NCBI RefSeq assembly: GCF_900100265.1
Contig: NZ_LT629696.1
Location: 806,001 to 870,000 of the forward strand
DNA from: Leifsonia sp. 466MF
GTDB taxonomy: Bacteria > Actinomycetota > Actinomycetes > Actinomycetales > Microbacteriaceae
Direction: 5' to 3'
DNA: 64,000 nt
The notes under the pieces were generated by a model. The model did not search any database and was not told where the DNA came from. It saw only the letters and a list, made by a program, of their open reading frames with translations. Each line of letters begins with the position of its first letter. Position 1 is the stretch's first letter. Positions 30,879-49,384 of this stretch are shown here, piece by piece. Made by a program: the position numbers and the translations under genes.

Positions 30879-31778
30879 ATGGACGCCGCCTCCGCCATCG
30901 ATGTACTCGTGTTCTCCGCGGAGTTCGCCTGCTGCGGCACGCCTTTCGCGGCCGGCGAGGATGTGACGTTGACGCTCCGCGCTCCCACCCAGGACTCGTC
31001 GGCCCACGATGGCGTTCCCACGTATCTCCACGAACTCCATCCGCATGACGACCGTGTGCCTCTCGCCGATGTCACCGGGCGCGTCGAGCGGATCGTCGCG
31101 TCGTACGAGCGGTTGGTTCCGGTCCCCGGTGCTCACTACCGCACCAACGACCCGGAGGATCGGATCGAACGCGATGTCGACCGGGTGCCGACCGAGGACC
31201 ATCCGGCGGGTTATGGCGGCCCGGACTACCGGGTGCGCCTCCGCATCCCCTCCGGAACGCGCCTGCCCGATCCCGCTCCCGAGGTCGAGCTGTCGCCTGC
31301 CCCCGACTTCGACGTCCCTCCGCCGCCGCGGATACTGCCTCTGCTGACGACGCTGGTCGCAGAAGTCGCCTCAGAGTTCGGAGACGCGGTGGACGTGCTC
31401 CGCGGCCGCGAGGACGCCTCCGTCACGCTGCAGCCGCGTCGGGAAGGGGCGGCCGCTGTGCGGTGGAACGCCTACCTCGATCAGCTCACGGCGGAGATCG
31501 AGCATGCGGAGTGGACGCTGACCGACGACGAAGCTGGCGTCGCCGTCCTCCGCGACCTCGTCGCCGCGGCCGCGGCGGGGCGCTTCTCCGAGACGGTGGA
31601 TGACTGGACGATTGTCTCCGTCGCGACGACGGCAGATGGGCGCGCGTACGAGGCGACGACGACCGTCTCGCGGTTTCCCCTCGGCGGCGACGTCGTGATG
31701 CTGGGAGGTTCCGACCACGAGCGGATCGAGCGCGCGCGGTCCGGAAATCCTTTCCTTCCGTGGAGCGACGAAGTCTGA
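30879..31778 (+). CDS. Hypothetical protein (DUF6578-like N terminus)
   Basis: 299 residues, acidic, without signal peptide or membrane segment. The N-terminal stretch VFSAEFACCGTPFAAGEDV resembles the DUF6578 proteins of actinobacteria, with the adjacent cysteines conserved. The second half (ILPLLTTLVAEVASEFGD onward) shows no known motif. ATG 30879 follows TAGCGT by 6 nt. Function unknown; it sits just upstream of the AAA ATPase and could be transcribed with it. Confidence 0.7.
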   Translation: MDAASAIDVLVFSAEFACCGTPFAAGEDVTLTLRAPTQDSSAHDGVPTYLHELHPHDDRVPLADVTGRVERIVASYERLVPVPGAHYRTNDPEDRIERDVDRVPTEDHPAGYGGPDYRVRLRIPSGTRLPDPAPEVELSPAPDFDVPPPPRILPLLTTLVAEVASEFGDAVDVLRGREDASVTLQPRREGAAAVRWNAYLDQLTAEIEHAEWTLTDDEAGVAVLRDLVAAAAAGRFSETVDDWTIVSVATTADGRAYEATTTVSRFPLGGDVVMLGGSDHERIERARSGNPFLPWSDEV

Positions 31779-31830
31779 TGGCAGGTCGCGCGCATCCACC
31801 TGCGTCGGCGGCCCCCGATACGATCCCGGA

Positions 31831-33033
31831 GTGATCTCCACCGTCGCCGTCTCCGGCTACCGCTCGCTGCGCGACCTCGTCATCCCGGTGGGGCGGCTGA
31901 CCGTGGTGACGGGCGCGAACGGGGCGGGTAAGTCGTCGCTCTATCGGGCGCTGCGGCTGCTGGCCGGGTGCGGGCGGGATGAGGTGGTCGTCGCGATCGC
32001 GCGCGAGGGCGGCCTCGACTCCACCCTGTGGGCCGGTCCGGAGCGCCTCGGCCGGGCGATGCTCCAGGGCGACGCGCCCGTCCAGGGAACCGTGCGTCGT
32101 GGTCCGGTCGCGCTCCGGCTGGGCGTGCAGCTCGACGACGGCGGCGTTGGCATCGGCTACGCCCTCGACCTCGGACTGCCGCAGCCCAGCAAGGACACCG
32201 CGTTCGGCCGCGATCCCGAGCTGAAGCTGGAGACCGTGTGGACGGGTCCTGCGCCTCGACCGTCGAGCCTGGCGGCCGAGCGGCGCGGCGGCCACGTCCG
32301 TGTGCGCGGCGACGACGGCGGCTGGACGGAGCTCGGGAAGACCCTGCGCACGTTCGAGAGCATCCTCACCGAGGTCGTCGATCCCGTCCGTGCCCCGGAG
32401 GTGCTGCGGGTGCGCGAGAACCTGCGCGCGTGGCGCTTCTACGACCACTTCCGCACCGACACGGCGGCCCCGGCGCGGCTTCCGCAGCTCGGAACGCGCA
32501 CGCCGGTGCTCGCCGCCGACGGGACGGATGTCGCGGCGGCCATCCAGACCATCCGCGAGTCGGGCGGCGGCGGCCCTTTCGACGCGGCCGTGGATGCGGC
32601 GTTCCCCGGCAGCCGGGTCGAGATCGTGGTCGACGGCGCGCAGTTCTCGGTGGCCGTCCGGCAGCCCGGGCTGCTCCGTCCGCTCGCGGGCGCGGAGCTG
32701 TCGGACGGCACCCTGCGCTTCCTGCTCTGGGCGGCCGCGCTGCTGTCACCGCGTCCGCCGCAGCTGCTGGTCGTCAACGAGCCGGAGACCAGCCTTCACC
32801 CGGACCTGCTGCCCGCGCTCGGCTCCCTCATCGTCGCCGCGTCGGCCAACGCGCAGCTCGTGGTCGTCACGCACTCCCACGAGCTGCAGGACGCGATCCG
32901 GCGTTCCGCGGCCGACCGCGACCTCGTCGACGACGTGAGCCGCATCCACCTGGAGAAGCAGCTGGGGGAGACCCACGTGCGCGGCCAGGAGGGCCTCCTC
33001 GACCGTCCCACCTGGCACTGGCCCACCCGCTGA
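31831..33033 (+). CDS. AAA-family ATPase, OLD-like, without nuclease domain
   Basis: 400 residues. Walker A GANGAGKSS lies at residues 28-36, the ABC-like ELSDGTLRFLLW signature near residue 290 and Walker B LLVVNEPETSLHPDL near residue 315, followed by THSHELQD with the H-loop. This is the RecF/SMC-like ATPase head seen in OLD-family and RloC-type proteins, but the TOPRIM nuclease is absent, as in AAA_21-type ATPases. GTG 31831 follows TACGAT by 6 nt. No partner effector gene is adjacent, so a defence role is speculative. Confidence 0.8.
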   Translation: MISTVAVSGYRSLRDLVIPVGRLTVVTGANGAGKSSLYRALRLLAGCGRDEVVVAIAREGGLDSTLWAGPERLGRAMLQGDAPVQGTVRRGPVALRLGVQLDDGGVGIGYALDLGLPQPSKDTAFGRDPELKLETVWTGPAPRPSSLAAERRGGHVRVRGDDGGWTELGKTLRTFESILTEVVDPVRAPEVLRVRENLRAWRFYDHFRTDTAAPARLPQLGTRTPVLAADGTDVAAAIQTIRESGGGGPFDAAVDAAFPGSRVEIVVDGAQFSVAVRQPGLLRPLAGAELSDGTLRFLLWAAALLSPRPPQLLVVNEPETSLHPDLLPALGSLIVAASANAQLVVVTHSHELQDAIRRSAADRDLVDDVSRIHLEKQLGETHVRGQEGLLDRPTWHWPTR

Positions 33034-33042
33034 ATGCTCGTT

Positions 33043-33078
33043 GCGGCTCCGGTGTAGATTCTGGCGTGTGAGTGACCC
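33043..33078 (+). repeat. Direct repeat copy 1 at the left edge of the RHS island
   Basis: Positions 33043-33072 are identical over 30 bp to 45048-45077; after one mismatch (33073) another five match. The repeat contains a -10-like TAGATT (33055-33060) and the GTG start of the gene at 33068, so it is a duplicated promoter-start segment. Similarity ends at both sides. Confidence 0.85.
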
Positions 33079-33427
33079 CGGCCGGCGGCACCGATGGGAC
33101 CGCGCGGTCTCGCGCCCGCTGACGCCCAGGAAAGATAGCCGAGCGCCGGGACTCGCGCAGCCCGGCGGATGGCTGGCGGGTGTCACGACGCCCCCGCGGC
33201 CGGTGAGCACGTGGGGGATGGCCTGGCGGCTGACCGCGCGGTGGACGGCCACGGTGGTCATGTCCGCCTTCCTCGCCGCCGCCATCTGGTCCGTCGCGGC
33301 GACGCCGTCGTCCCAACACTGGCTCGTGCTGCTCGCGGTCGTCGGTAGCTGGCTCTACAGCGTCCTGGTGACCGTCGTCCTCACTGTGGTGCTAGTGCGG
33401 GCTCCCCGAGCGCCGCGCCGAGGGTGA
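33068..33427 (+). CDS. Small membrane protein starting in the direct repeat
   Basis: 119 residues: a basic N-terminal tail (MSDPGRRHRWDRAVSRPLT), then two membrane segments near residues 58-78 and 86-108, ending in a basic PRAPRRG. No family recognised. GTG 33068 is chosen because TAGATT lies 7 nt upstream and because the same segment with the same start precedes the gene at 45073. The first four residues (VSDP) are shared with that gene, the rest is not, so the join may mark a recombination event. Confidence 0.65.
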   Translation: MSDPGRRHRWDRAVSRPLTPRKDSRAPGLAQPGGWLAGVTTPPRPVSTWGMAWRLTARWTATVVMSAFLAAAIWSVAATPSSQHWLVLLAVVGSWLYSVLVTVVLTVVLVRAPRAPRRG

Positions 33428-33529
33428 GCGCCGCTGTCAGCTAGCGCTTCTCTCGGGCTGGATGACCTTCCCTCCGGTCAAGCCCCCGAACTGGGGCATA
33501 CCACGATGGTCCCTACAGTTCCATGAGAA

Positions 33530-33559
33530 TTGATTAAGAATTCGCCGGGCGGCTAGGGT
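33530..33559 (+). promoter_or_regulatory. Promoter of the RHS locus
   Basis: TTGATT (33530-33535) and TAGGGT (33554-33559) are 18 bp apart in a locally AT-rich stretch. Transcription would start near 33566, giving a leader of about 40 nt with a G-rich ribosome site (CGGGGGGA) before GTG 33605. The rest of the 177-bp gap after the gene at 33068 shows no gene. Confidence 0.6.
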
Positions 33560-33604
33560 GTGGCTTGGCCGCCGGGGGCGGCCAGTGTCTCGGGGGGATT
33601 TTTC

Positions 33605-36600
33605 GTGAAGTTGTTCTCTGCTGCCGGTTCATACCGGATGCCCGCTTTTCTGCTCGCCGCGGGCCTGTGCGTCGCATTCGGGGCCGGATCGCTCGCCGCC
33701 CCACAGCCGGCGCAAGCCATGGACAGCGCGCCGGCCGCTGAGGCGCCTGCCGACTCTCAGCAGGTCGAGTCCGAGGCGGAGGCCCGTGAGGTGGCCGCAA
33801 CCCACAACCACGAGGTCGTCGTCGCAGACCAGTCATCGCCGAACGTCCTGGTCAAGGCGCGCCCTGACGGGTACATGGAGGCAGTGAGCAGCCAGGTGCC
33901 CGAACAGGCGGAAGTCGGCGGCGTCTGGACTGCTGTGGATACGACACTTGTCGAGAAGGAAAGCGGCTACGAACCGAAGGTCGCTGCCGTGCCGGTGCGA
34001 ATCGGCAAAGGCGGTTCCCCGCTCATCGTCTCTGTGAAGTCGGAGTCGGGCGACTGGGTCAGTGAGAGCTGGCCGTACGGCGATCTTCCGGTGCCGACCG
34101 TGAGCAAGAGCGTTGCCGTGTTCGCGAACGTCCTGCCGGACGTGGACCTGAGGGTGACCGCGACGAAGGCCGGTATGCGTGAAGTCCTGGTCGTGAAGAC
34201 AGCGGATGCGGCAGCCGACCCGCGGCTGGACGAGGTTCGTCTGACGATCAAGGGCGCTCGGCTGGTGATGGCGACCGAGACGGACACCATGCAGGCCCAC
34301 ACCGGGTCGGGGGACCCCGTGGTCGCCGCAACGCCACTGTGGTGGGATTCGTCGCATGAAAGCGCCAGCGCGGAGTCACCGGGGGCGGTGGAGCCGAAAG
34401 CCGTCGAGGCGACAGTGGACGGCTCGCAGTCGGTGCTGGACGTCGGAGCCGTGACCGACGGGGACGTGACATATCCGCTGTACGTCGACCCGGACTGGAG
34501 CGCATACCTGCAGTACGACTGGTACACAGACCGGGCCTACCCGAATCAGGCGTACTTGAACCCGCCGGAGAACAGCGTTGGCTACGGCATTCAGAACGGT
34601 GTCGGCTATCTGTCCCGGGCCTTCTACCGGTTCGATACGAGTTTCCTCGCCGGGAAATCTGTTTCGAGCGCCCATTTCGATGTCGTGCAGAACTGGGCCA
34701 ACAGCTGCGCGAGCACGTGGACCCAGCTCTGGCAGTACGGTGGCTCGGCTGTCGGCTTCACCTGGAACACCGACCCCGGCCTATGGGTGCGCGCGATCGA
34801 TGCCCAGGCATACAACAACGGCGGTCCGTGCAGCCCCAACCCGGCGTGGGTCGGGTTCTCCGCTACTCCCACGGCGCAGGACGCCGCGACATACTCGGCT
34901 CCGTTCATCGTGTTGGCCCTCAGGACCGCCGACGAAGGGAATTCGCTGTCCCGCAAGCACTTCCGCTGGGATGCAAAACTCACGGTCACCTACAACTCCC
35001 GGCCGAATCAGCCGGCGAATCCCGCAATGACCGCGCCCTCGCGCGGCTGCAGCACCGATCCGAACAATCCCTCCTATGTGTACGGGAAAGCGAAGATCAC
35101 GATGAAGGTGAACGTCACCGACCCGGACACCGATCAGCTGACGGCAGCCAACTTCTTCCTCAAGAGGATCTCGACCGGTGCCGTGAAGACCACCCCGACG
35201 TCCTTCCAGGCTCAGGGCGCCAACTTGACCTACACGATCGATCCGGCCTCCGCGACGCTGAGCGCTGTGGAGAAGCTCGTCGACGGTGAGAAATACGCGT
35301 GGTCGGCGAGAGGAAGCGACAACATCCAGGACTCCGCGACGGATTCTCCGTGGTGCTATTTCGTCGTCGACTCGAGCGCGCCGGCACTACCGACGGTCTC
35401 CATCGATACGTCAGGGGGCGCCCGGATCGGATCGCCTCTGACGGCCACCATCACGCCGGCGCCTGGTGAACAGATCGCCGGCTACCAACTCTGGTGGACG
35501 GACACCGCGAAGACGAGCTCCAGCCCGGCGGCTCCGGTCACCTCGTACACCACGGAGTTGCCAGGGTGCGGCGCAGGAGTGGTGGGGACCGTGCGCGTGA
35601 TCTGCGCCTCCGCTTCGGGAGGGGCGACCGTCACCGTTGCGCCGATCGCGAATCCCTCGACACTGTGGGTGGCCGCGTACGACAAAGCCGGAAACGTGTC
35701 GTTCGATGCGGCGACCAACTCCTCCGCGGCAGGCGCGCAGGTGGACGCTACGCTGCCGCTGGATCTGTCCGGTGGTCACCTGTGGAAGGCGGACACGGAT
35801 CCGCCGGTCGGGCTCTCCGATGTGATCGGGACGGCCGCTGTCACGATGGGGAGCTTCAACGGCTGGGGGACTGATGCCGGCGAGAACGATCCGCAGCTGA
35901 CGTCGGTCGGGCTGACCGCCCTGAATCGCTACGTGAAGGCGGGAGTCGGGCACGCCACCGAGGTAGACGGGGGACAGGTGCCCGGATACACCCTCGAATT
36001 CCCCGTCGGTCACGTCGCCCGATACGGTGCGGGCAGCAAACAACCCGTGAACTCGCAAGTGCTCTATGCGTGCAAGTACGGCGTGGGCAACATGCTCTCC
36101 ACGTCCGCGACGTGCGAGGGAACCGGGCTCACAGGTCGCCCGCTCGGCTATGACTGGAAGACCGCGGCGGACGTTCCGTCGGGGTATCAGGCTCGGGAGA
36201 TCTTCCGTTGCCGGATCGGGACGGACTACTTCGTCAGCGTCGTTCCGGCCTGTGAGGGTGGCGCAGCCGTCGAAGGAAGCCGGGGCTTCGTCGCGGTCTA
36301 CGTCCCCACCACCACAGCGGCGGGCGTGGTGGACACCACCAAATCGTTCACGGTCTCGGCCCGAGTGAAGGCCAACGGTGGGAGCGAAGCCCAGACGATC
36401 GTCTCGGCCAGCGGGGCTACCAACGCCGGGTTCTATCTCCAGAACTCGGGCGGCTACTGGCAGTTCTGCGTCCGCTCCCAGGGCGCGACCCTCATGACAG
36501 CGTGCGCAAAGGGTGCAGCGATTCCGGCGACGCCCCGGTTCGTGACCGTCTCCGGCGTGTGGGATGCGATCAACAAGCAGGTCATGCTGGTCGTTCACGA

Positions 36601-36802
36601 CGAGGACCTCACTGAGGCGACCACGACCAGCTACACCCCACCGGCCGACGACAAGGCGGCGACGGGGGCGGTGGTGTTCGGGGCCGCCGGCTCGGGATCC
36701 ACACCGTTGCAGATCCTCGACGGGCAGATCGCAGACGTGTCTTTCTATCCGGTGGCGTTGCCACGGACCGCGCTGTCCCAAGTCCCCGTCCCCGCTCCCT
36801 GA
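33605..36802 (+). CDS. Secreted DNRLRE / LamG-like protein, partner of the RHS protein
   Basis: 1065 residues. A signal peptide ends at AQA near residue 38. After a beta-rich region with repeated YVDPDWSAY-type segments comes a DNRLRE-like carbohydrate-binding domain (about residues 300-460; FYRFDTSFLAGKSVSSAHF and WNTDPGLW are typical), then Ig-like modules, and a C-terminal concanavalin/LamG-like fold (about 890-1060; FTVSARVKANGG, ADVSFYPVAL). Such proteins precede RHS genes in actinobacteria and probably attach to or assemble with the RHS shell. The RHS gene starts 28 nt downstream, so the two form an operon. Confidence 0.82.
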   Translation: MKLFSAAGSYRMPAFLLAAGLCVAFGAGSLAAPQPAQAMDSAPAAEAPADSQQVESEAEAREVAATHNHEVVVADQSSPNVLVKARPDGYMEAVSSQVPEQAEVGGVWTAVDTTLVEKESGYEPKVAAVPVRIGKGGSPLIVSVKSESGDWVSESWPYGDLPVPTVSKSVAVFANVLPDVDLRVTATKAGMREVLVVKTADAAADPRLDEVRLTIKGARLVMATETDTMQAHTGSGDPVVAATPLWWDSSHESASAESPGAVEPKAVEATVDGSQSVLDVGAVTDGDVTYPLYVDPDWSAYLQYDWYTDRAYPNQAYLNPPENSVGYGIQNGVGYLSRAFYRFDTSFLAGKSVSSAHFDVVQNWANSCASTWTQLWQYGGSAVGFTWNTDPGLWVRAIDAQAYNNGGPCSPNPAWVGFSATPTAQDAATYSAPFIVLALRTADEGNSLSRKHFRWDAKLTVTYNSRPNQPANPAMTAPSRGCSTDPNNPSYVYGKAKITMKVNVTDPDTDQLTAANFFLKRISTGAVKTTPTSFQAQGANLTYTIDPASATLSAVEKLVDGEKYAWSARGSDNIQDSATDSPWCYFVVDSSAPALPTVSIDTSGGARIGSPLTATITPAPGEQIAGYQLWWTDTAKTSSSPAAPVTSYTTELPGCGAGVVGTVRVICASASGGATVTVAPIANPSTLWVAAYDKAGNVSFDAATNSSAAGAQVDATLPLDLSGGHLWKADTDPPVGLSDVIGTAAVTMGSFNGWGTDAGENDPQLTSVGLTALNRYVKAGVGHATEVDGGQVPGYTLEFPVGHVARYGAGSKQPVNSQVLYACKYGVGNMLSTSATCEGTGLTGRPLGYDWKTAADVPSGYQAREIFRCRIGTDYFVSVVPACEGGAAVEGSRGFVAVYVPTTTAAGVVDTTKSFTVSARVKANGGSEAQTIVSASGATNAGFYLQNSGGYWQFCVRSQGATLMTACAKGAAIPATPRFVTVSGVWDAINKQVMLVVHDEDLTEATTTSYTPPADDKAATGAVVFGAAGSGSTPLQILDGQIADVSFYPVALPRTALSQVPVPAP

Positions 36803-36830
36803 CACGCTGCAACGAAACTGAGGATTCGAC

Positions 36831-39800
36831 GTGACATTCTCCACTTGGTTAACTCGCAGCTCGGCGCTCGGCGGCCTCGTCATCGCCACGCTGGTCGCAG
36901 CCACCCTGCAGGGCGCGCCTTCCTCCGCCGCTGAGGCGCCGACACCTCCGGCGTGGGCGAAGGTCGTGCCCGGCTCTGCCGCGAAAGAGCACGTCGGCAA
37001 GGGCGGCACACCCCCGGAGTCGGCTGCGATCTCCACCGCCCCCGCGCCAACGGGCGACTATCAGGTCGATATCGACGGCGGGGCGAAGGGCGAGTCGATC
37101 GCGGTCGACGACACGACCGGTCGATCCGCCGTCGTCGTCGACGGGAAGTGGCATCCGGTCGGCGACACCGGACTCACGGTCGCCAGCGCGGGAGACACGC
37201 AGTCCGCTGCGGATGCGCGCAAGCAGCTCGAAGCTTCCAAGATGGGGACCGCGAAGGCCAAGGCCAAAGACCGGGCCGAGAAGGTCTCTGTGAAGTTCCT
37301 CCCGTCCGCGAGTGCCGAGAAGCTCGGCGCGGCCGGCCCGATCGTACAACTGAGCCGCGCAGACGGTTCTGCGACCGAGGCGGCGATCGGGGTTCGGATT
37401 CCGACGAAGGTTCTGGCTGCGGCGTATGGCGCGGACTTCGCCTCCCGCGCCCACTGGGTTCAGCTCGACGGGACGGCGCTGCCCAAGTCCGGGAAGGACC
37501 TGCGGAGGAAGGCCACCTCTGTTCCGTCGGAAGTGGATTCCGAGTCCGGAACGGTGACAGCGGCCCCGACGATCGGTCGCGCACCAGTACTGATGATGGC
37601 CCTCGCCACCGCGACGGGCGCGTCCGGGACAGGGGATTTCACAGCTACGTCGCTCAAGCCATCGGCGGAATGGGATGTGTCAGCGCAAACCGGGACATTC
37701 AGCTGGAAGTATCCGCTGCGAATCCCGCCGGCGCCTGCCGGCCCGGCACCCGACCTCGCGCTGTCGTACGACTCTCAGTCCGTCGATGGGCTCACGGGCT
37801 CGACCAACAACCAGCCATCCGCGATCGGTGAGGGCTGGTCTCTCGCCGGAAGCGGATTCATCGAGCGCTCCTATGTCGGCTGCGCAGTGGACGACGGTGC
37901 GTCGGGGCCGGTGAAGACCTCCGGTGATCTGTGCTTCAAGAACGCGAATGCCACCGTCTCCTTCGCGGGCCACTCCGGCGAGCTGATCCGGGTCGGTGCC
38001 ACCAACCAGTACCGCCTCGCCGCCGACGACGGCACGCGTTTCACGGAGTACAAGGGAGCGCCGTGCGCCTCCAACGGCACCGCCGACACCGCCTGCTGGC
38101 AGATGGTCACCACTGACGGCACTCAGTACTTCTTCGGGCTGAACCAGCTCCCCGGATACGTCGCGGGGAAGCCGACCACCAATTCGGCCTGGACGGTGCC
38201 GGTGTTCGGCAACGACGCGGGCGAGCCGTGCCATGCCGACACTTTCGCGGCGTCATCCTGCCAGCTGGCGTGGCGGTGGAACCTCGACTATGTCGTCGAC
38301 GTGCATGGCAACGCGGAAGCGTATTACTACAACGCGCAGACGAACATGTACGCGAAGAACGGGTCGACTGCGACCGCTTATGTGCGCGGCGGTGAGCTCG
38401 AGCACATCGAATACGGCCTCAGCGCTTCCACCGTCTTCGGTGCAAACGCCGCGTCGGGCAAGGTGTTCTTCAGCTACGACAAGAACGGGCGCTGCTCCGA
38501 CGGCAGCGGCGCACAGTGCACCACGCAGCCGGCGGCCGGCAACGCCGTCAAGCCGGCGAACGCCGCCTCCTATCCCGACATCCCGTTCGACCAGCTGTGC
38601 GCGTCCGGCACCTGCGCAGGCCTGGTGTCGCCAACATTCTGGACCACGTCGAAACTGTCGACCGTGAAGACGCAGGTCCTGTCGGCCGGTGCCTACAAGG
38701 ACGTCGACTCGTGGGCGCTCAAGCAGTCCTTCCCCGCTCCGGGCGATGGGACGTCGCCTGCGCTTTGGCTGGACAGTGTCACCCACACCGGCTATTCCGG
38801 TACCGCCACCTTGACCGAGCCGACGGTGAGCTTCGGCGGCGCGGTCCTCCAGAACCGGGTCTGGGCTGTTGACGGCCTCGCGCCGCTCGACAAGTGGCGG
38901 ATCGGATCCATCAAGACCGAGCTCGGCGCGACCGTCAGTGTCAACTACTCGGCCCAGGAGTGCGTGCCCGCCGACCGGGCAGCGATCTTCGCAGCACCGC
39001 AATCGAACATCAAACGCTGCTACCCGCAGTGGTGGTCGCCGTCGGTGACGCCACCGCAGGCGCCCCAACAGGATCTGTTCCACAAGTACGTCGTCACCAG
39101 CGTCATCGACAACCCCAACACCGGGGGAGCCGGTGCGCCTGCCGTCGAGAAGTACTACGTCTACGGCACGCCCGCTTGGCGGTACAACGATTCTCCGCTC
39201 GCTCCGGCGGAAAAGCGGACCTGGTCGATCTTCGCTGGTTTCGACACCACTGAAGTTCGCGTCGGACAGGCGACGAAGCCGTCCGAGCAGAACGTCACCA
39301 AGTACACCTTCTTCCGCGGATTGGATGGCGACAAAGCGTCACCCGCGGGTGGAGTGAAGTCCGTCCAGGTGGGTGGCGTCCCCGACTACCGCCCGTTCGC
39401 CGGGAAGGTCCGCGAACAGGTCGCCACTCTCGGCGTCGGGGGAGCAGTCCTCTCGACGACGACCACCACGCCGTGGGGGTCCGCACCGACCGCCAATGAC
39501 GGTGTGCATTCCTCGTGGTACACCGGCGACTCTCAAGTCGTGGTGGTCGAGCCCGTATCGACCGGCGGGACTCGATCCACGACCACGACAACGAGTTACG
39601 ACCCCACCTGGGGGCTGCCGACGAGCGTGCAGACCACCCACACGGACGCGCCGGCGACGTGCGTCACCACCACGTACGCGCCGGCGAACACCAGCCGCTA
39701 CCTCATCGGAAGCGTGGCGGAATCTCTCACGACTGCAGGGACGTGTGACCAGGCAGCCACAGCGGAGGCCGACCGGCTCATCAGCGATGTGCGCACGAGT

Positions 39801-42800
39801 TATGACGGCCAAGCTCCAGGAGCGGCTCCGACGACCGGTGACCCGACCACGGTCGAAACCGTCACGTCGATGACCGGAACTTCGAAGACGTGGTCGACCA
39901 TCGCCACGACCGGCTATGACGCGATGGGCCGGACTGTGCAGGTCACGGACGCCCTCAACCGGATCACCAAGACGGCGTACACGCCGGCCGGCACCGGCGG
40001 GCCGACGACCAAGGTGGTCGTCACCAACCCACTCGGCTGGACCTCCAGCACGGAGTTCGACCCCGCATGGGGCGCCGTGCTCAAAGCGACGGATGAGAAC
40101 AACAAGATCACGTCCGCCAGCTACGATGCCCTCGGCCGGCGCACGGGGGTGTGGCTTCCCAACAAGTCCCAGACGACCTATCCGACTGCCCCGTCGACGA
40201 AATACACGTACAACCTGTCCCAGAGCCTCGCTTCAACGGTGGCCACCGAGTCCACCATCCCGGGCAGCACCATCACCGCCTACGACCTGTATGACGGTCT
40301 GGGCCGGATCGTGCAGCACCAGGCCAAGGCGGTACAGAGCGGGGGTGTGATGACCGACACCGCCTACGACTCCCAAGGCCGGGCGATTTCGAGCACATTG
40401 CCGTACTGGGCAACGGCCGCCCCATCGAGCAGCCTGTTCATTCCCACCAGCATGGCGCAGGTGCCTTCCCGTACGGACACGGTCTACGACGCCGCCGGGC
40501 GCACAACCGCGTCGATCCTTTACACCTACGGCAACGAGAGCTACCGCACCACCACCGGGTACCCCGGAGCAGAGCGGGTGAACGTCACCCCGCCCGCAGG
40601 CGGCACTCCGGCCAGTACGATCACCAACTCGGCCGGTCAGAAAACAGCACTCACTCAGTACCAGGCGCCCACTCCGACCGGTAGCGGACTCACGACCTCC
40701 TACGCGTACACGCCGGCAGGCAAGCTCGCCCGGATGACGGACCCGGCAGGAAACGCGTGGTCGTGGCAGTACGACCTGCAAGGCAACCAGATCGTCGCCG
40801 ACGACCCTGACTCCGGTCACACCACCTCCAGCTACGATCTCGCGGGTAACGTCCTTTCCACCACGGATGCTCGAGGTCAGGTTCTCGCCTACAAGTACGA
40901 CGACCTCAACCGCAAGACCGAGAAGCGCTCCGGATCGAAAACCGGCCCGCTGCTGGCATCGTGGACCTACGACACGGCGGCGAAGGGCAAGCCGGCGTCG
41001 GCGACGAGCTACACCGGCTCGACGGCAACCACTCCGGGACTCGCCTACGTCACGTCCACCGACAGCTACGACGACCTTTACAACCCGACATCCTCCACGG
41101 TGAAGATCCCGGCAGGAGCGCCGGCGTTCGGCGGCACCACCTACACGGTGACGATGACCTACAACAACGCCGGTCTCCCGCAGCAGCGCACCCTACCGGC
41201 GATCGGAGGACTGCCGCTCGAGCGCATCCGCATCGGGTACAACGGCATCGGCAGCGTCGACAACGTTCAGGGCGCGACCATGTACGGGGTCACCTCGTAC
41301 ACGCCGACCGGACAGCTCGCCGCCATCACGCGGGGCACCAGCGGGTACACGATGAACACCACGTTCGGCTACGACCCGAGCACCGGGCAGCGCAATCAGG
41401 TCATCGACACCGCGTCTACGCCGACCGGCTCCGGTACCCAAGCGAACCGCCTCTACAAGCGCAACCCGGCCGGGGATGTCACGAGCATCCAAACAACGGG
41501 CCTCACCGGCACGGACACGCAGTGCTTCCGCTACGACGCCATGCGTGCACTCACCGAAGCCTGGACACCCAGCACCACGGACTGCGCCGCCGACCCGACA
41601 GTGGCGGGACTCGGCGGAGCGGCGCCCTACTGGAAGTCCTATCGTGTTGACCCATCCACCGGTAACCGCACTTCTTTGACTACGCACGACGCTTCTGGTG
41701 ATTTGACCGCCTCCTACGCGTACCCGCCAGCCGGGCAGCCTCATCCCCATGCGGCAATTGCCGTGGGCGCGGCAGCATACGTGTACGACGCGAGCGGGAA
41801 CACGACAACCCGAGCGGACCAGTCCCTCAGCTGGGATGAGTCGGGGAAGCTCTCCGTCGTGTCAACTCCTAACGGCGCGCAGAACAGGGTGTACGACGCG
41901 GCCGGGAATGTGTTGATACAGGTTGATGCCGAGTCTGGAGCCCAGCTGTATCTAGGCGAAACGCGGCTGACCCTTGCTCCGCAAGGCACTGCCGCCTCCG
42001 CCATCCGCACTTACGCCATAGCGGGATCCGTCGTGGCGGAGCGGGTGAGCCTGGCCGGGGCGTCGGGCTCAAAAGTCACATGGCTTTCGGGTGACCTCAA
42101 CGGCACGCAGGATATGGCTATCCAACAGTCGACTGGCGCGGTCACGCGACGATTCGCTGACCCCTTTGGAAACCCGCGAGGCGCCTCCACTGGCTGGGGC
42201 AGCGATCACGGGTACCTGAACGCACCGGCATCTCCCTTCTCCGGACTGACGCAGCTCGGAGCGCGCGCCTACGACCCCCTAATCGGGCGATTCGTATCCG
42301 TCGATCCTGTTTTGTCGCAGGACAACCCGAGTCAAAACAACGGGTACAGTTACTCCGCCAACAACCCTGTTTCCTTCAGCGATCCGGACGGAAAATGCTA
42401 TGTAGGGTCGGTTGATTCCCTCAATCACAAACCCAACTGCTCGTCCGGTGGGGCAAAGCCCATCGTGTCTCGAAACAACCCTGCGGCACCTGGACCTGAT
42501 AAGGGCACTTACACAGGTACCGGAAACAACAGCCGAGGAAAGGCCGCCGATGGAGGAAACAATTGGCGCGCTCCGAGCACAAAAACGGTGTTGGATTGTG
42601 CGATACATGGCTCCGTATGTGCTGGAACTCTGCCACAGGCGCCGCCCGTTCCTGGTCAAGACATTCCCGATGTGTGCGTAGGTGCAGCGAAGTTCAGGCA
42701 CTGTTCGCCAGATGGGTATGGCTACGTTTATGACAGCTACATCACGGACGCGCTCGGTGCCCAAGATGTCATGGACATCTTCAAGAAAAACCCTCAGCGT

Positions 42801-43145
42801 ATATTCCCATTCCCTGTTAGCGGGTGCGAATCCTTCACTGACGGGGCGACATGTCATCTGAAGGCTTTAGGCAATTGGTTCACATCTGAGGGCGACGTAG
42901 TCGTCTCGACCACCGCAACGAGCGTAACCTTTACTGTCGCATCTGAGGGCTATTTTGATCCTCCGGGATCTACCATCGAATTCTCCGCAGTGCAGTACGG
43001 AAGCGATGTCTATCTCCGTCGTACTGCGCGAGCACTCGGCGGCGGTGATGGGGGTGTGCAAATTGGCATACAGCTACTTAAGCTGAATCAGCCGACCTGG
43101 GACCAGCAAGCCGCGAATTTGAGAGACCTGATCAATGGACGATAA
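36831..43145 (+). CDS. Secreted RHS-repeat polymorphic toxin with variable C-terminal domain
   Basis: 2104 residues. A signal peptide (cut near residue 34) leads to an SpvB/TcdB-like N-terminal part (LALSYDSQSVDGL at about residue 308, GEGWSLAGSGFIERS), then dozens of YD/RHS repeats (about 1020-1800, e.g. YDAMGRTVQVTDALNR). The RHS core ends with GARAYDPLIGRFVSVDP (about 1810) and NNPVSFSDPDGK (about 1845). The last roughly 250 residues are unrelated to the core, are encoded in visibly less GC-rich DNA, and contain cysteine-bearing motifs VSGCESFTDGATCHL and EGYFDPPGSTIEFS; this is the expected toxin or effector domain, of no family I can name. GTG 36831 follows GAGGA. The next gene overlaps its end. 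Confidence 0.9.
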   Translation: MTFSTWLTRSSALGGLVIATLVAATLQGAPSSAAEAPTPPAWAKVVPGSAAKEHVGKGGTPPESAAISTAPAPTGDYQVDIDGGAKGESIAVDDTTGRSAVVVDGKWHPVGDTGLTVASAGDTQSAADARKQLEASKMGTAKAKAKDRAEKVSVKFLPSASAEKLGAAGPIVQLSRADGSATEAAIGVRIPTKVLAAAYGADFASRAHWVQLDGTALPKSGKDLRRKATSVPSEVDSESGTVTAAPTIGRAPVLMMALATATGASGTGDFTATSLKPSAEWDVSAQTGTFSWKYPLRIPPAPAGPAPDLALSYDSQSVDGLTGSTNNQPSAIGEGWSLAGSGFIERSYVGCAVDDGASGPVKTSGDLCFKNANATVSFAGHSGELIRVGATNQYRLAADDGTRFTEYKGAPCASNGTADTACWQMVTTDGTQYFFGLNQLPGYVAGKPTTNSAWTVPVFGNDAGEPCHADTFAASSCQLAWRWNLDYVVDVHGNAEAYYYNAQTNMYAKNGSTATAYVRGGELEHIEYGLSASTVFGANAASGKVFFSYDKNGRCSDGSGAQCTTQPAAGNAVKPANAASYPDIPFDQLCASGTCAGLVSPTFWTTSKLSTVKTQVLSAGAYKDVDSWALKQSFPAPGDGTSPALWLDSVTHTGYSGTATLTEPTVSFGGAVLQNRVWAVDGLAPLDKWRIGSIKTELGATVSVNYSAQECVPADRAAIFAAPQSNIKRCYPQWWSPSVTPPQAPQQDLFHKYVVTSVIDNPNTGGAGAPAVEKYYVYGTPAWRYNDSPLAPAEKRTWSIFAGFDTTEVRVGQATKPSEQNVTKYTFFRGLDGDKASPAGGVKSVQVGGVPDYRPFAGKVREQVATLGVGGAVLSTTTTTPWGSAPTANDGVHSSWYTGDSQVVVVEPVSTGGTRSTTTTTSYDPTWGLPTSVQTTHTDAPATCVTTTYAPANTSRYLIGSVAESLTTAGTCDQAATAEADRLISDVRTSYDGQAPGAAPTTGDPTTVETVTSMTGTSKTWSTIATTGYDAMGRTVQVTDALNRITKTAYTPAGTGGPTTKVVVTNPLGWTSSTEFDPAWGAVLKATDENNKITSASYDALGRRTGVWLPNKSQTTYPTAPSTKYTYNLSQSLASTVATESTIPGSTITAYDLYDGLGRIVQHQAKAVQSGGVMTDTAYDSQGRAISSTLPYWATAAPSSSLFIPTSMAQVPSRTDTVYDAAGRTTASILYTYGNESYRTTTGYPGAERVNVTPPAGGTPASTITNSAGQKTALTQYQAPTPTGSGLTTSYAYTPAGKLARMTDPAGNAWSWQYDLQGNQIVADDPDSGHTTSSYDLAGNVLSTTDARGQVLAYKYDDLNRKTEKRSGSKTGPLLASWTYDTAAKGKPASATSYTGSTATTPGLAYVTSTDSYDDLYNPTSSTVKIPAGAPAFGGTTYTVTMTYNNAGLPQQRTLPAIGGLPLERIRIGYNGIGSVDNVQGATMYGVTSYTPTGQLAAITRGTSGYTMNTTFGYDPSTGQRNQVIDTASTPTGSGTQANRLYKRNPAGDVTSIQTTGLTGTDTQCFRYDAMRALTEAWTPSTTDCAADPTVAGLGGAAPYWKSYRVDPSTGNRTSLTTHDASGDLTASYAYPPAGQPHPHAAIAVGAAAYVYDASGNTTTRADQSLSWDESGKLSVVSTPNGAQNRVYDAAGNVLIQVDAESGAQLYLGETRLTLAPQGTAASAIRTYAIAGSVVAERVSLAGASGSKVTWLSGDLNGTQDMAIQQSTGAVTRRFADPFGNPRGASTGWGSDHGYLNAPASPFSGLTQLGARAYDPLIGRFVSVDPVLSQDNPSQNNGYSYSANNPVSFSDPDGKCYVGSVDSLNHKPNCSSGGAKPIVSRNNPAAPGPDKGTYTGTGNNSRGKAADGGNNWRAPSTKTVLDCAIHGSVCAGTLPQAPPVPGQDIPDVCVGAAKFRHCSPDGYGYVYDSYITDALGAQDVMDIFKKNPQRIFPFPVSGCESFTDGATCHLKALGNWFTSEGDVVVSTTATSVTFTVASEGYFDPPGSTIEFSAVQYGSDVYLRRTARALGGGDGGVQIGIQLLKLNQPTWDQQAANLRDLINGR

Positions 43146-43572
43146 CCGATACGAGACGGACCTTCGGGCCCCCATCTGGTGGTCTATTGTCCTTAGTGTC
43201 GGACTCGGCGTTTTCATACATGGGATAGCCATGGCACCGCCGCTCGGGGTGACGCCGAACTTGGTGGTGGGATTTTACGGGCTGTTTCTTGTTATCTGGA
43301 CGCTCCCTACCTCTCTACTAGTAGGGCTGGCCGTGGGGTTTGCGCTGAGGCTGACCGTCCGACGGTATGGTGGACGAGTACTCTCGTCGTGGCGCACGCG
43401 GCTCTTAGTGTCTCTCTCCTACGGGCTTCTGCTTTCAGGAGGGTTCTATTTGATCTTCTCCCACCTCTGGACTAATGGCGTCGGCTTCGTCGCCCTGGGC
43501 GTTGCGTTCGGCGCGGGCGTGGCGATGGCGCTGTTTTTGACGTCCTCGCGAGCGGTCGTCCATTCCGCCTGA
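43135..43572 (+). CDS. Four-pass membrane protein, putative immunity protein (copy 1)
   Basis: 145 residues with four membrane segments (about 12-31, 40-64, 84-106, 110-132). It begins inside the last codons of the RHS gene (11-bp overlap), the classical place of an immunity gene. It is clearly paralogous to the protein at 45073: in the segment starting SIVLSVGLGV, 41 of 59 aligned residues are identical (counted by hand). Its DNA, like the toxin domain, is less GC-rich than the flanks. A membrane immunity protein would suit a membrane-active toxin; this is inference. Confidence 0.75.
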   Translation: MDDNRYETDLRAPIWWSIVLSVGLGVFIHGIAMAPPLGVTPNLVVGFYGLFLVIWTLPTSLLVGLAVGFALRLTVRRYGGRVLSSWRTRLLVSLSYGLLLSGGFYLIFSHLWTNGVGFVALGVAFGAGVAMALFLTSSRAVVHSA

Positions 43573-43585
43573 GAGTCATCGCGGC
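43572..43585 (+). repeat. 14-bp half-repeat after immunity copy 1
   Basis: AGAGTCATCGCGGC at 43572-43585 is identical to 45039-45052. At 45048 that same sequence runs straight into the 30-bp repeat shared with 33043-33072, so the right-hand site looks like a fusion of this left half and the 33043 right half with a GCGGC crossover. Confidence 0.7.
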
Positions 43586-43616
43586 GGCAGGGCACCTGTG
43601 CGGGTATCCTCCACGC

Positions 43617-44036
43617 GTGTCTGAATTCGCGACCTACGTGGAGAACGTCGTGCGGCCGTACCCGGGGACGGGCAAGAAGCGCGACCCCGCTAGCCTGCTC
43701 CACGACTATTACGCGATCATTACCAACGTTGCAGACGTCTATAATGACTACGTTGCCGAGTACTTCAACGATCTCGCGCCCCGAGACTTCATCGAACAGG
43801 TTCTCCGCGATCCGACCGCTCAACGGTTCCCGGAGTTCGAAGAGTTCGCTCGCCAGGTCGATGACTTGGATGAGCAATTCCGGCGGCTGCTCACTCCGAC
43901 ACCGGTTGCGCCCGGCAAGGGCTGGTGGACCACGCACCTGCCGCTACGCGCTGGGCGCAGGTTCAACGACGAGATGTGGACACTCTTCGACTACCGAGCT
44001 GAACCCGCCGAAGACGGGGGCGGCACCTGGTACTGA
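43617..44036 (+). CDS. Small acidic protein of unknown function in the RHS island
   Basis: 139 residues, no signal peptide or membrane segment, mainly helical, with an aromatic run (LLHDYYAIITNVADVYNDYV) and an acidic middle (FPEFEEFARQVDDLDEQF). No family recognised. TATCCT (43605-43610) lies 6 nt before GTG 43617, so it has its own leaderless promoter. Position right behind a toxin-immunity pair makes an immunity or accessory role plausible but unproven. It converges on the gene ending at 44049. Confidence 0.65.
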   Translation: MSEFATYVENVVRPYPGTGKKRDPASLLHDYYAIITNVADVYNDYVAEYFNDLAPRDFIEQVLRDPTAQRFPEFEEFARQVDDLDEQFRRLLTPTPVAPGKGWWTTHLPLRAGRRFNDEMWTLFDYRAEPAEDGGGTWY

Positions 44037-44048
44037 GTGGCATGGCGG

Positions 44049-44450
44049 TCAACTGACCCGTCTGGAAAACGGGGGATCACCCCACCAGCCCACACCGCCG
44101 GCATCGAACACGAGTCCATCGGCGACGCGCCCTAGCGGCTCGGCGATGCTGAAGTCAGCGATGTCCGTCCCGAACTCCTCCGCCGTCGGTTGATCGGTGT
44201 ACGCACCGGAGTATTGCTCGCCGGTTGCCGTGACAGGTAGCCCCGCGGTGGGACCCCAGGGCGATCCGTAGACGACACAGAAGCCATCGTCGAACGCCCA
44301 CGCGTCGACGACGGTGACCTCCTCCGCTGAAGTCGGGCCGCCCGAACGGAGACGCTCGAGACAGCTCAGCAGAGCGGTCTGACCCCACGACAGCTCGGGG
44401 AGAGCCCGCAGCTCGTCGATCGCTGCGCTGTGCGCGGGGGTCGCGCTCAC
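44049..44450 (-). CDS. Unknown protein coupled to the barstar gene
   Basis: 133 residues, soluble. Recognisable stretches are WGQTALLSCLERLRSGG, YGSPWGPTAGLP, and a C-terminal FDAGGVGWWGDPPF. The spacing of Trp and Gly resembles small immunity-type proteins, but I can assign no family. GTG 44450 overlaps the stop of the barstar gene (GTGA 44447-44450), so the two proteins are made together from one transcript. Confidence 0.65.
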   Translation of the reverse strand: MSATPAHSAAIDELRALPELSWGQTALLSCLERLRSGGPTSAEEVTVVDAWAFDDGFCVVYGSPWGPTAGLPVTATGEQYSGAYTDQPTAEEFGTDIADFSIAEPLGRVADGLVFDAGGVGWWGDPPFSRRVS

Positions 44451-44983
44451 GGCGCGGCCCCGTCCACGCGGTCGGAGAGGAGCCACTCGCATGGGCTCCA
44501 CGGGGGCTCCGCGCCACCGACCGGTCCGACATCCAGCAGCGGGTCGTCCGACCGGATCACGCACAGGATCCGGTTGCCGAGGAGTGCTCCGAGACGAGCC
44601 GTGTCGACGAGGATGTCGAGCAGGATCCGACAGGCGGCCGGCATCGTCGCGCGGAACCGGTCGAGGTGGTCGAGTTCGATGATGAGTCCCGTGTCGGCCT
44701 TCGTCCATCCGTAGGCCTGCTCGGCGACGTCCTGGAGGCAGTCGGACAGCGCGGAGAAGTTGCGGCCGTAGTAGGCGGGGAAGTCGAGGGCGGTACTCAG
44801 CGCCTCGTGAAGGTCGGCTTCGTCGGTCCAGGATGCGGTATCCAGCCGGACGACGCGGTAGCCGGCCGACCGGAAGGAGGCGAGCGACTCATCGACGACG
44901 GCCGCCGAGTGGAACTTCGTCACGAATCCGTTCCTGGCCAGTTGGAATCCGGGATCCTGATCGTCCGCTTCCCACACAGCCAC
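44447..44983 (-). CDS. Barstar-family ribonuclease inhibitor (immunity protein)
   Basis: 178 residues. The barstar hallmark FPAYYGRNFSALSDCLQD lies at about residues 73-90, preceded by an acidic DEADLHEALSTALD helix; barstar uses this region to plug barnase-type nucleases. The protein is longer than barstar itself (about 90) owing to an N-terminal and a C-terminal extension. GTG 44983 follows TAGGTT by 6 nt on the minus strand. No barnase-like toxin gene is visible in the window, so it is an orphan immunity gene within the RHS island. Confidence 0.85.
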   Translation of the reverse strand: MAVWEADDQDPGFQLARNGFVTKFHSAAVVDESLASFRSAGYRVVRLDTASWTDEADLHEALSTALDFPAYYGRNFSALSDCLQDVAEQAYGWTKADTGLIIELDHLDRFRATMPAACRILLDILVDTARLGALLGNRILCVIRSDDPLLDVGPVGGAEPPWSPCEWLLSDRVDGAAP

Positions 44984-45038
44984 GAGAGAAACCTATCTCG
45001 CACGAGACGCCGTCGAGCAAGCGACGGCCACTGCTCCA

Positions 45039-45083
45039 AGAGTCATCGCGGCTCCGGTGTAGATTCTGGCGTGTGAGCGACCC
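45039..45083 (+). repeat. Composite repeat at the right side of the RHS island
   Basis: 45039-45052 equals 43572-43585, and 45048-45077 equals 33043-33072 (30 bp, extended to 45083 with one mismatch). The two identities overlap in GCGGC. It carries TAGATT and the GTG start of the paralogous membrane protein. The direct-repeat copies are about 12.0 kb apart. Confidence 0.85.
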
Positions 45084-45567
45084 ACGAACCTCCGGCCGGG
45101 CCGAGGAGGCGGCGACGACACCGTCGGGGCCTGCCACCCGCCACCGGAGGAGATGGGGACCTTTCGTCTGGTACTCGATCGCTTTGTGCACCGGCCTCGG
45201 CGTGCTCATCCACGGGACGGCGATGGCGCCGCCGTTGGGGTGGACTCCGCCCCTGGTCGCGGGCTTCTACCTGTTATTCCTGTTCATCTGGACAATTCCG
45301 ACGTCGATGCTGCTCGGCTTGGCACTCGGGCTCGGGCTGCGCTGGGCGGTCGACTGGTCTGAGCGGCGGGCGCCCGCATGGTGGCGCTCCGGGATCGCGC
45401 TGTCAATCGCCTACGGTTTGCTGGCAGCGGGAGGCTTCGCTCTGATCTTCTCCCGGGCGTGGACGAACGGTGTGGGCCTGTTCGCGGCGGGAGCGGGCTT
45501 CTGCGTGGGCGTGGCGATGGTGCTCGTCCTTCGGAAGACGCTGGACACTCGTGCAGCGCATCACTGA
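45073..45567 (+). CDS. Four-pass membrane protein, putative immunity paralogue (copy 2)
   Basis: 164 residues: a hydrophilic N-terminal tail of about 35 residues, then four membrane segments aligned with the protein at 43135 (identical words HG-AMAPPLG, IWT-PTS, WTNGVG, GVAMVL/AL). It is not next to a toxin domain, so it looks like a retained immunity gene of an earlier toxin or a duplicate. GTG 45073 lies in the repeat shared with 33068. Its end overlaps the next gene by 17 bp. Confidence 0.72.
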   Translation: MSDPRTSGRAEEAATTPSGPATRHRRRWGPFVWYSIALCTGLGVLIHGTAMAPPLGWTPPLVAGFYLLFLFIWTIPTSMLLGLALGLGLRWAVDWSERRAPAWWRSGIALSIAYGLLAAGGFALIFSRAWTNGVGLFAAGAGFCVGVAMVLVLRKTLDTRAAHH

Positions 45568-46093
45568 CCCCGATCGCCTCCAGGCCGTCGTCGGCCTGAG
45601 GGACGCTGCCGCCGACGGCCCCTACGACCTCCGCGCCGAGTGGCTGTCCGCGACGGGTTCCTTCGTTCTCGCACAGGAGGCTGCATCGCGGATCGACCCC
45701 GACCAGATCGAGCGCATCATCAGAGCGAGCGCCGTGCACGGCATCGGGGGCTACATCGCCGTGTCGAATGACGATGCGTTTGTGGACCCGACGACGATGG
45801 CCTTCGAGGTTGACGTGACGCAATCGGAGCTCCACGCCTGCAGCGACGAGTTCTTCGGCCTCAACATGATGCTCTTGGCGCCGGACCATGCCATCGCGCT
45901 GCTCTCAACCGTCGACGACTATTCGATCCTTGCGGGCCCTCGAGCCTTCCTCCTCGGCTACGAACCCGACATCGATCGGGCGCTCGAGGAGTTCAGATCG
46001 TTTGCGCTTCAGCAGATTGAGAGCCTCCGCCCTGCTGCTCTTCGGGCGCTCGAGACTTTTGAGAGCCGTTTCCCGACACGATCGGTCGACTGA
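45551..46093 (+). CDS. Unknown protein at the end of the RHS island
   Basis: 180 residues, soluble, no signal. GTG 45551 overlaps the membrane gene by 17 bp, so the two are probably coupled. Visible stretches are GIGGYIAVSNDDAFV, LLAPDHAIALLSTVDDY and ILAGPRAFLLGYEPD, with a helical C-terminal tail. No family recognised. The overlap with an immunity-like gene suggests a role in the same island. Two strong hairpins follow the stop. Confidence 0.65.
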   Translation: MQRITDPDRLQAVVGLRDAAADGPYDLRAEWLSATGSFVLAQEAASRIDPDQIERIIRASAVHGIGGYIAVSNDDAFVDPTTMAFEVDVTQSELHACSDEFFGLNMMLLAPDHAIALLSTVDDYSILAGPRAFLLGYEPDIDRALEEFRSFALQQIESLRPAALRALETFESRFPTRSVD

Positions 46094-48572: not shown

Positions 48573-48648
48573 TAGATGTTGTTTCGCGCAACATTTGACC
48601 GGATGGCCGCGTAAATCTCCGCGTCGAGTCTGGCGTTAGGCACGTGCG

Positions 48649-48662
48649 TCGAACCGGTTCGA
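48649..48662. promoter_or_regulatory. Second TCGAACCGGTTCGA operator
   Basis: Exact copy of the palindrome at 48525-48538, 124 bp upstream. The spacing fits DNA looping between two LacI-family tetramer sites. The 242-bp gap between the two minus-strand genes holds nothing else. Confidence 0.7.
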
Positions 48663-48715
48663 GGAACGGACTCAGCGGTACCTGAGCCGTGAGCAGGCGT
48701 TACGACCCGATGCCC

Positions 48716-49318
48716 TCAGCGGATCTTTTCGACATCATGCAGCCAGTCTCTCGCCGCTTCAGCCGGTGGTTCCCCCGCCATCGCCGCGAGGGCGGTCTGA
48801 TAGTGATCGCCGAAGATCACCGTCGTGATGGTCTTGAGTTTGTAACCCAGAGCCCCTTTGTCCCAGGTGGCTTGGGGAGTGGCTTCCCAGAGATAAAGGA
48901 ACTTCTTCGTCAGGCCGCCCGGTACGCCTATCCACATTCCGTCGAGTCGACGGTCCCGCTCGATGCCAACCAGGTGACCCGTGACGAGGAGCGATCGCAG
49001 CATCCGTTTGGTGCCGTCGAGGTCGGGTTGCGTGCTGACGGGAGGCAGCGCTGGGGGCCATTCGGGCGCGGACTTGGCGAACTCCGACTGAAACGACCGA
49101 TCCGGCCGCACGCTCTTGACGTCGCTGATTCGAATCGCCGCATAGCCGTCCAGGTAGCCACCCGCGGTCGTCTGCGAGAGCAGCACCCACTGTCGTCCGA
49201 CAGCGAGGACGAATCCATCGATGGTGTAGCCCGGACGCGATCGCCGACGGATCCTCATGATCTTTTCGCCACTGACGCCGACCTTCAGGTTTGAGCGGAT
49301 CTTCGCGCGCGACGCCAT
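48716..49318 (-). CDS. Conserved-looking hypothetical protein
   Basis: 200 residues, soluble, basic N terminus (MASRAKIRSNLKVGVSGEKIMRIRRRSRPG). A beta-rich first half (GYTIDGFVLAVGRQWVLLSQ) could be an SH3-like or Lsm-like barrel; the second half contains TKRMLRSLLVTGHLVGIERD. No family recognised. It lies between the glycoside hydrolase and tRNA-Lys on the same strand. Start ATG 49318 is the first in frame. Confidence 0.65.
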   Translation of the reverse strand: MASRAKIRSNLKVGVSGEKIMRIRRRSRPGYTIDGFVLAVGRQWVLLSQTTAGGYLDGYAAIRISDVKSVRPDRSFQSEFAKSAPEWPPALPPVSTQPDLDGTKRMLRSLLVTGHLVGIERDRRLDGMWIGVPGGLTKKFLYLWEATPQATWDKGALGYKLKTITTVIFGDHYQTALAAMAGEPPAEAARDWLHDVEKIR

Positions 49319-49384
49319 GCGTTCATACTGTCATGTCGGATCGTTCGGGCTCCGGGTCGCGAGTCAGTCGCGTCATGACGAGGG

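Follow-up and report, generated by a model that had tools for sequence, protein, structure and literature searches.

The window analysed here, 64,000 nucleotides from Leifsonia sp. 466MF (G000:C1:806001-870000), belongs to a high-GC actinobacterium whose 4.14 Mb genome forms a single contig. It carries an RHS island in which the variable C-terminal end of a long RHS protein, hereafter the tip, is directly followed by a gene for a small membrane protein (gene A). The open reading frames given in the initial annotation (LamG, RHS, and six small genes within 3 kb) were recovered as stated. The island itself comprises the following features, in window positions:

33605-36802, plus strand: gene for a LamG-domain protein, 1065 aa (Laminin_G_3, E 1.5e-9, Pfam)
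36831-43145, plus strand: gene for the RHS protein, 2104 aa
36831-42398, plus strand: carrier part of the RHS protein, residues 1-1856, with RHS_repeat, YD_repeat_2x and Rhs_assc_core
42399-43145, plus strand: variable C-terminal tip of the RHS protein, residues 1857-2104
42681-43142, plus strand: folded domain within the tip, predicted to have a Bet v 1/START-like fold
43135-43572, plus strand: gene A, 145 aa, four-pass, overlapping the RHS stop by 11 bp; candidate cognate immunity gene
33435-43598, plus strand: unit of LamG gene, RHS gene and gene A, missing in the same-genus genome G267

The RHS protein matches RHS_repeat (E 1e-14) and DUF6443 (E 9.6e-8) in Pfam, as well as YD_repeat_2x (E 3.5e-17) and Rhs_assc_core (residues 1777-1854, E 8e-15) in NCBIfam. 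The tip is thus preceded by YD/RHS repeats and an Rhs-associated core, as expected of an RHS polymorphic toxin. Its upstream neighbor had been labeled DNRLRE/LamG-like; the LamG half of this label stands, while DNRLRE gives no match at E <= 1. By eye, the LamG protein begins with a signal-like stretch, and it is proposed to be a secreted partner of the RHS protein. No family in Pfam, NCBIfam or PHROGs matches the tip above cut-off, in keeping with the earlier view that the toxin had not been described, and none of seven proteins of the locus has a match in PADLOC at E <= 0.1. The GC content is 0.546 in the tip, 0.596 in gene A, 0.664 in RHS residues 1-1640 and 0.691 in the window.

Behind the RHS gene, six small genes (A to F) occupy 43135-46093. 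Those that follow gene A are:

43617-44036: gene B, 139 aa
44049-44450, minus strand: gene C, 133 aa
44447-44983, minus strand: gene D, a barstar, 178 aa (Pfam Barstar, E 1e-18)
45073-45567, plus strand: gene E, 164 aa, four-pass; resident paralogue of A and candidate orphan immunity gene
45551-46093: gene F, 180 aa

The initial annotation had described these small genes as two paralogous four-pass membrane proteins, a barstar homologue and three unclassifiable proteins. This description is borne out: A and E are paralogues (56% identity over 133 aa, E 8e-39), D is a barstar, and for B, C and F no family of Pfam or NCBIfam reaches its cut-off. A weak PHROGs tape-measure match of F (E 0.0044) is the sole match among five proteins at E <= 0.01.

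The genome G267 separates the island from its surroundings. There, 33435-43598 is missing and the flanks, both at 93-95% DNA identity, meet across about 20 bp. G267 retains B, C, D, E and F, along with the upstream gene M0 (33068), at 89-92% amino-acid identity (91% for E), and gene A is absent together with the RHS pair. Because G267 keeps B to F without this stretch, the sequence comparison identifies the RHS pair plus A as the unit and B to F as residents. The idea that all six small genes belong to the island is rejected, and the string of immunity genes that had been proposed to accumulate behind the RHS gene is not supported. Conservation of the small genes without the RHS pair had been named beforehand as grounds for abandoning the whole proposal; it is found for B to F and not for A. 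The window's tip was not found in G267, which has another, distant RHS gene (C1:1277211-1280513). LamG matches occur in 7 of the 28 genus genomes, own included, and in G267 by the LamG domain only. Over the flank at 31126-33424, identity is 94.4% to G267 and 89.3% to a second genome of the genus, G308. It is thus the closer of the two that lacks the unit and the more distant one that has it, a pattern that either loss in G267 or transfer would explain.

In G308, the same site holds an island with the same carrier and a different tip. Identity is 97.1% for the LamG protein and 98.4% for RHS residues 1-1590; it is 53.9% for residues 1640-1856 and about 20% for the tip, with the drop falling at about residue 1590-1640 (window 41600-41750). 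Next to the G308 tip comes a gene for a protein of 172 aa that has no hydrophobic segment. After it stand an A-like relic and gene B, each in two frames, and C; the G308 stretch searched yielded no D, E or F. In position and in its change together with the tip, the gene behind the RHS gene behaves as an immunity gene would. This supports the initial reading of the locus as an RHS polymorphic-toxin island and disposes of an invariant tip, which had been named as evidence to the contrary. Related carriers in G306, G125 (two) and G319 likewise end in other tips, and the window's tip matches six RHS stretches of the genus (L051, L106-L110) at a best E of 0.055. Taken together, the three genomes make up a natural series: one lacks the unit, one has one tip, and one has another tip plus an A-like relic, and the replacement of the tip is legible in their sequences.

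The carrier may also have moved between species. At four-fold degenerate sites, the window and G308 differ by 9.5% in RHS residues 1-1590 (97/1016) and 16.1% in LamG (103/641), as against 23% (201/872) in seven neighboring genes pooled, with the ABC-transporter gene left out for having been read in the wrong frame. The lower divergence of RHS and LamG suggests that the carrier was transferred between these species after their split. It is no proof, because single neighboring genes range from 11.3% to 32.3% and the lowest is near the RHS value.

At E <= 1e-3, the tip has matches in 7 of 299 family genomes counting its own, two being weak, and in 4 of 396 genomes of an order draw, again counting its own, with the other three at 1.4e-4 to 4.5e-4. 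At E <= 0.01, a class draw gave 4 of 394, own included (others 2.0e-15, 6.6e-13 and 6.1e-6, the first and last spanning fewer than 50 positions), and a phylum draw gave 2 of 396, own included, the other being weak (E 0.005). A scan of named genomes yielded seven loci, in Microbacterium, Agreia (two), Mycetocola, Subtercola, Agromyces and an unclassified actinomycetote; like the window, Agreia and Mycetocola lacteus belong to the Microbacteriaceae. The plasmid collection held no tip match. Among the carriers are RHS proteins, a 345-aa protein that has no RHS match (L018) and, with a signal-like N-terminus, a protein of 334 aa (L065). This last protein, from G531 (L112/L065), ends in a tip-like domain and overlaps a gene for a 180-aa multi-pass protein; it is possibly a stand-alone secreted form of the tip. 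In the 2.7-Mb genome G301, two RHS loci (C1:2238628-2246886 and 2410388-2420420) have stops in the carrier, and one of them ends in a copy of the window's tip split over two frames.

What the close loci share is the gene behind the tip. In all nine, window included, it encodes a protein of 124-172 aa with at least three hydrophobic segments, defined as 19 residues with a Kyte-Doolittle mean of 1.5 (at 1.6, L057 has two). The membrane gene overlaps the tip stop by 4-14 bp in 7/9; the exceptions are L019, where it is split over two frames, and L060, where it lies 417 bp away. Two of six opened hits outside the family, the distant tips L065 and L069, show the same pairing. As a control, five other main tips of the genus were used (G308, G306, two in G125, and G319, whose tip is in another frame than its core ORF), to the exclusion of genes that follow orphan cassettes or the second RHS gene of the own genome; none of the five next genes has more than one hydrophobic segment (0/5). 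The pairing table leaves out L008, L009 and L122 (weak matches, next genes unopened), L064 and L066 (by eye, repeat stretches in surface-type proteins), L068 (a 45-position match, no multi-pass ORF listed on that strand) and L070 (a 49-position match in a 62-aa frame, with a 92-aa three-segment ORF behind). L058, L059 and L062 duplicate L018, L019 and L020.

By hydropathy and position, A resembles the polytopic membrane immunity proteins of the TspA/TsaI type, and it is probably a small membrane protein protecting its producer. For E, whose sequence is related to that of A, the best reading is an orphan immunity gene. A quite different view is that the tip is a ligand-binding end and no toxin, with the four-pass protein serving as exporter or anchor. 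Some Lipocone-family membrane proteins do bear an extracellular lipid-binding helix-grip domain (PMC12419801). We consider this view very improbable: genes of the A/E type are present in genomes that lack such a tip (G267, E 4e-88; G315, 4e-15; the G308 relic; weak matches in four more genomes, E 8e-5 to 0.003), and related RHS proteins carry other tips and other neighbors at the same position.

The helix-grip fold consists of a strand, two helices, a curved sheet and a long C-terminal helix. The structural check of residues 1857-2104 that had been proposed for this locus was run as a model plus fold search (Foldseek, VIA-align), and the tip is predicted to be a compact alpha/beta domain with such a fold, like those of the Bet v 1/START/SRPBCC superfamily. 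The resemblance is one of the predicted model; no Pfam or NCBIfam model of the superfamily matches the tip at E <= 1. A disulfide probably stabilizes the tip in most members. The fold matches include enzymes (thebaine synthase, norcoclaurine synthase and onion lachrymatory factor synthase), and six polar residues are invariant in nine tips (T78, S81, T85, Y91, S97 and N146), both of which would suit an enzyme built on a helix-grip scaffold and altering a membrane lipid or a cytosolic substrate. We judge this quite unlikely, since the 19 invariant columns hold hydrophobic or aromatic residues, Gly, Pro, Ser, Thr, Tyr and Asn and no charged residue, and the partner is a membrane protein in every close locus.

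To cut nucleic acid, many of the known RHS tips have to enter the cytoplasm, and it is poorly understood how they cross the envelope of a Gram-positive cell. A tip of lipid-binding type with a membrane immunity protein could act without that crossing. The explanation we favor, to which we give about an even chance, is an RHS island whose helix-grip tip acts on a membrane lipid and for which A provides immunity. The island would probably move between species, and the RHS protein and its LamG partner would be exported through general secretion. The tip would then act at the outer face of a neighbor's cytoplasmic membrane, where it would most likely bind and withdraw a lipid or isoprenoid. A membrane immunity protein would imply action at the membrane, a logic already applied to Lipocone toxins (PMC12419801). 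The four-pass A protein in the producer's own membrane would block the tip, E would be a leftover or protective orphan copy, and recombination within the 3' end of the conserved core would swap the tips. Of all this, the computation shows the presence or absence of the unit, the replacement of the tip, its pairing with a membrane gene and the predicted fold, whereas toxicity, immunity, secretion, site of action, disulfide and ligand are inferred. A more specific version, which we consider unlikely, makes the tip a non-enzymatic START-fold cup that removes a scarce essential isoprenoid, either the polyprenyl-phosphate cell-wall carrier or menaquinone, from a rival membrane; the integral membrane immunity protein would guard that lipid, and the cup would be shared by RHS and other carriers across actinobacteria.

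Several observations weigh against the favored explanation. The tip is rare, being present in 2 of 28 genus genomes, the second (G301) with its copy in two frames. Searched with a profile of the nine tips, the PDB yields no START or Bet v 1 sequence (best E 1.2), and because of this the kinship is drawn from the predicted fold. Two orphan cassettes in G306 with another tip type are each followed by a multi-pass ORF, so membrane partners are not peculiar to this tip. The model of A has four helices at low confidence (pLDDT 64.9, pTM 0.41) and is a poor guide to any mode of immunity. Finally, four of the nine tips have hydrophobic 15-residue stretches near the last helix, with means of 1.4-1.7, which also fit membrane insertion. 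The tip might accordingly kill by insertion and depolarization, as do TspA, EsxX and Tse5, the helix-grip fold being its soluble form. Such toxins offer precedents: TspA/TsaI has a multi-pass membrane immunity protein (PMC9484751), EsxX depolarizes (PMC12744356), and so does the RHS toxin Tse5 (PMC10684867). We nevertheless hold insertion to be fairly unlikely, for no transmembrane-like 19-residue mean is reached in the nine tips (best 1.08) and the model is a compact alpha/beta domain.

Under the favored explanation, the island joins features of several known systems. Like the RHS/WapA-type toxins with main and orphan rhs-CT/rhsI pairs, it has a long YD-repeat carrier with Rhs_assc_core, a tip changed by recombination near the core end, an immunity relic behind the new pair and orphan cassettes in relatives; it differs in its LamG partner, its actinobacterial host and a tip family outside Pfam and NCBIfam. 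For cystatin-like carriers, a START-like helix-grip domain has already been described as the toxin at the C-terminal end of a polymorphic system (eLife 2025, PMC12419801). That system shares the domain and its terminal place and has a related BamE-like membrane-anchored immunity protein, whereas here the carrier is RHS or another protein and the immunity candidate is four-pass; the two tip families are likened here by description. In the same paper, a four-TM-core protein accompanies one group of Lipocone toxins. TspA/TsaI and EsxX of Staphylococcus aureus are likewise secreted toxins acting at the membrane, with the polytopic TsaI present in extra copies; they use type VII secretion, no helix-grip fold is reported for them in the text covered, and the likeness drawn here is one of proposed site of action and type of immunity protein. 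The Bet v 1/START/SRPBCC proteins differ in having no detectable sequence relation to the tip, which here ends secreted carriers. The exchange of RHS tips is already known, as are orphan and polytopic immunity (PMC3967940, PMC9484751, PMC3482391). Our literature search, whose coverage excluded most subscription papers and preprints, found no paper on this RHS-borne tip family. Within that literature, what is new is the placement of a START-like helix-grip tip on RHS proteins and other carriers of actinobacteria, in company with a four-pass immunity family, together with the record of its replacement between related species.

The resident genes B to F could themselves form a small polyimmunity locus directed against the toxins of neighbors, a reading compatible with the favored one and, in our view, possible though doubtful. 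It would account for the barstar D, the orphan A-type gene E and the two overlapping pairs, D-C (the C start at 44450 overlaps the stop of D) and E-F (F starts inside the end of E). A C-like match (36%) adjoins a barstar in G306, and extended immunity loci without toxin genes have been described (PMC3482391). On the other side, B, C and F match no immunity family, and the 14-19.5 kb around the B relative (G304) and barstar relatives (G055, G178, G306) contain no RHS match. The neighbors in G304, G055 and G306 have a non-toxin look, judged by eye without a family search.

The locus also holds two short repeats. The copies of a 41-nt repeat at 33038-33078 and 45043-45083 are 93% identical, and each holds TAGATT plus the GTG start of M0 or E, otherwise different small membrane-protein genes; it looks like a leaderless promoter shared by the two. 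With up to 3 mismatches allowed, its 23-nt core matches the genome at two places. Considered as boundaries of the unit, these repeats were rejected: both copies are in G267 without the unit, whose ends lie elsewhere (the M0 copy is also in G308). The two stretches searched around the unit junctions have no 9-mer in common. A 14-nt stretch directly behind A (43572-43585) recurs just upstream of the E start region (45039-45052), as if A and E had once stood in tandem. Further downstream, a second gap relative to G267 at about 48598-49375 covers a minus-strand gene (48716-49318) with no match in the G267 stretch and 77% identity in G308. Elsewhere in the genus, L106 (G306:C4:839500-849500) has two RHS-core cassettes with another short tip type behind its main RHS gene, each with a multi-pass ORF after it, which makes this a second tip type with partners in the membrane. 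The second RHS locus of the own genome, L110 (G000:C1:2836331-2843184), has more RHS-core fragments around it, along with small ORFs that contain two or three hydrophobic segments, and distant RHS genes of its kind are among the matches in 17 of the 28 genus genomes.

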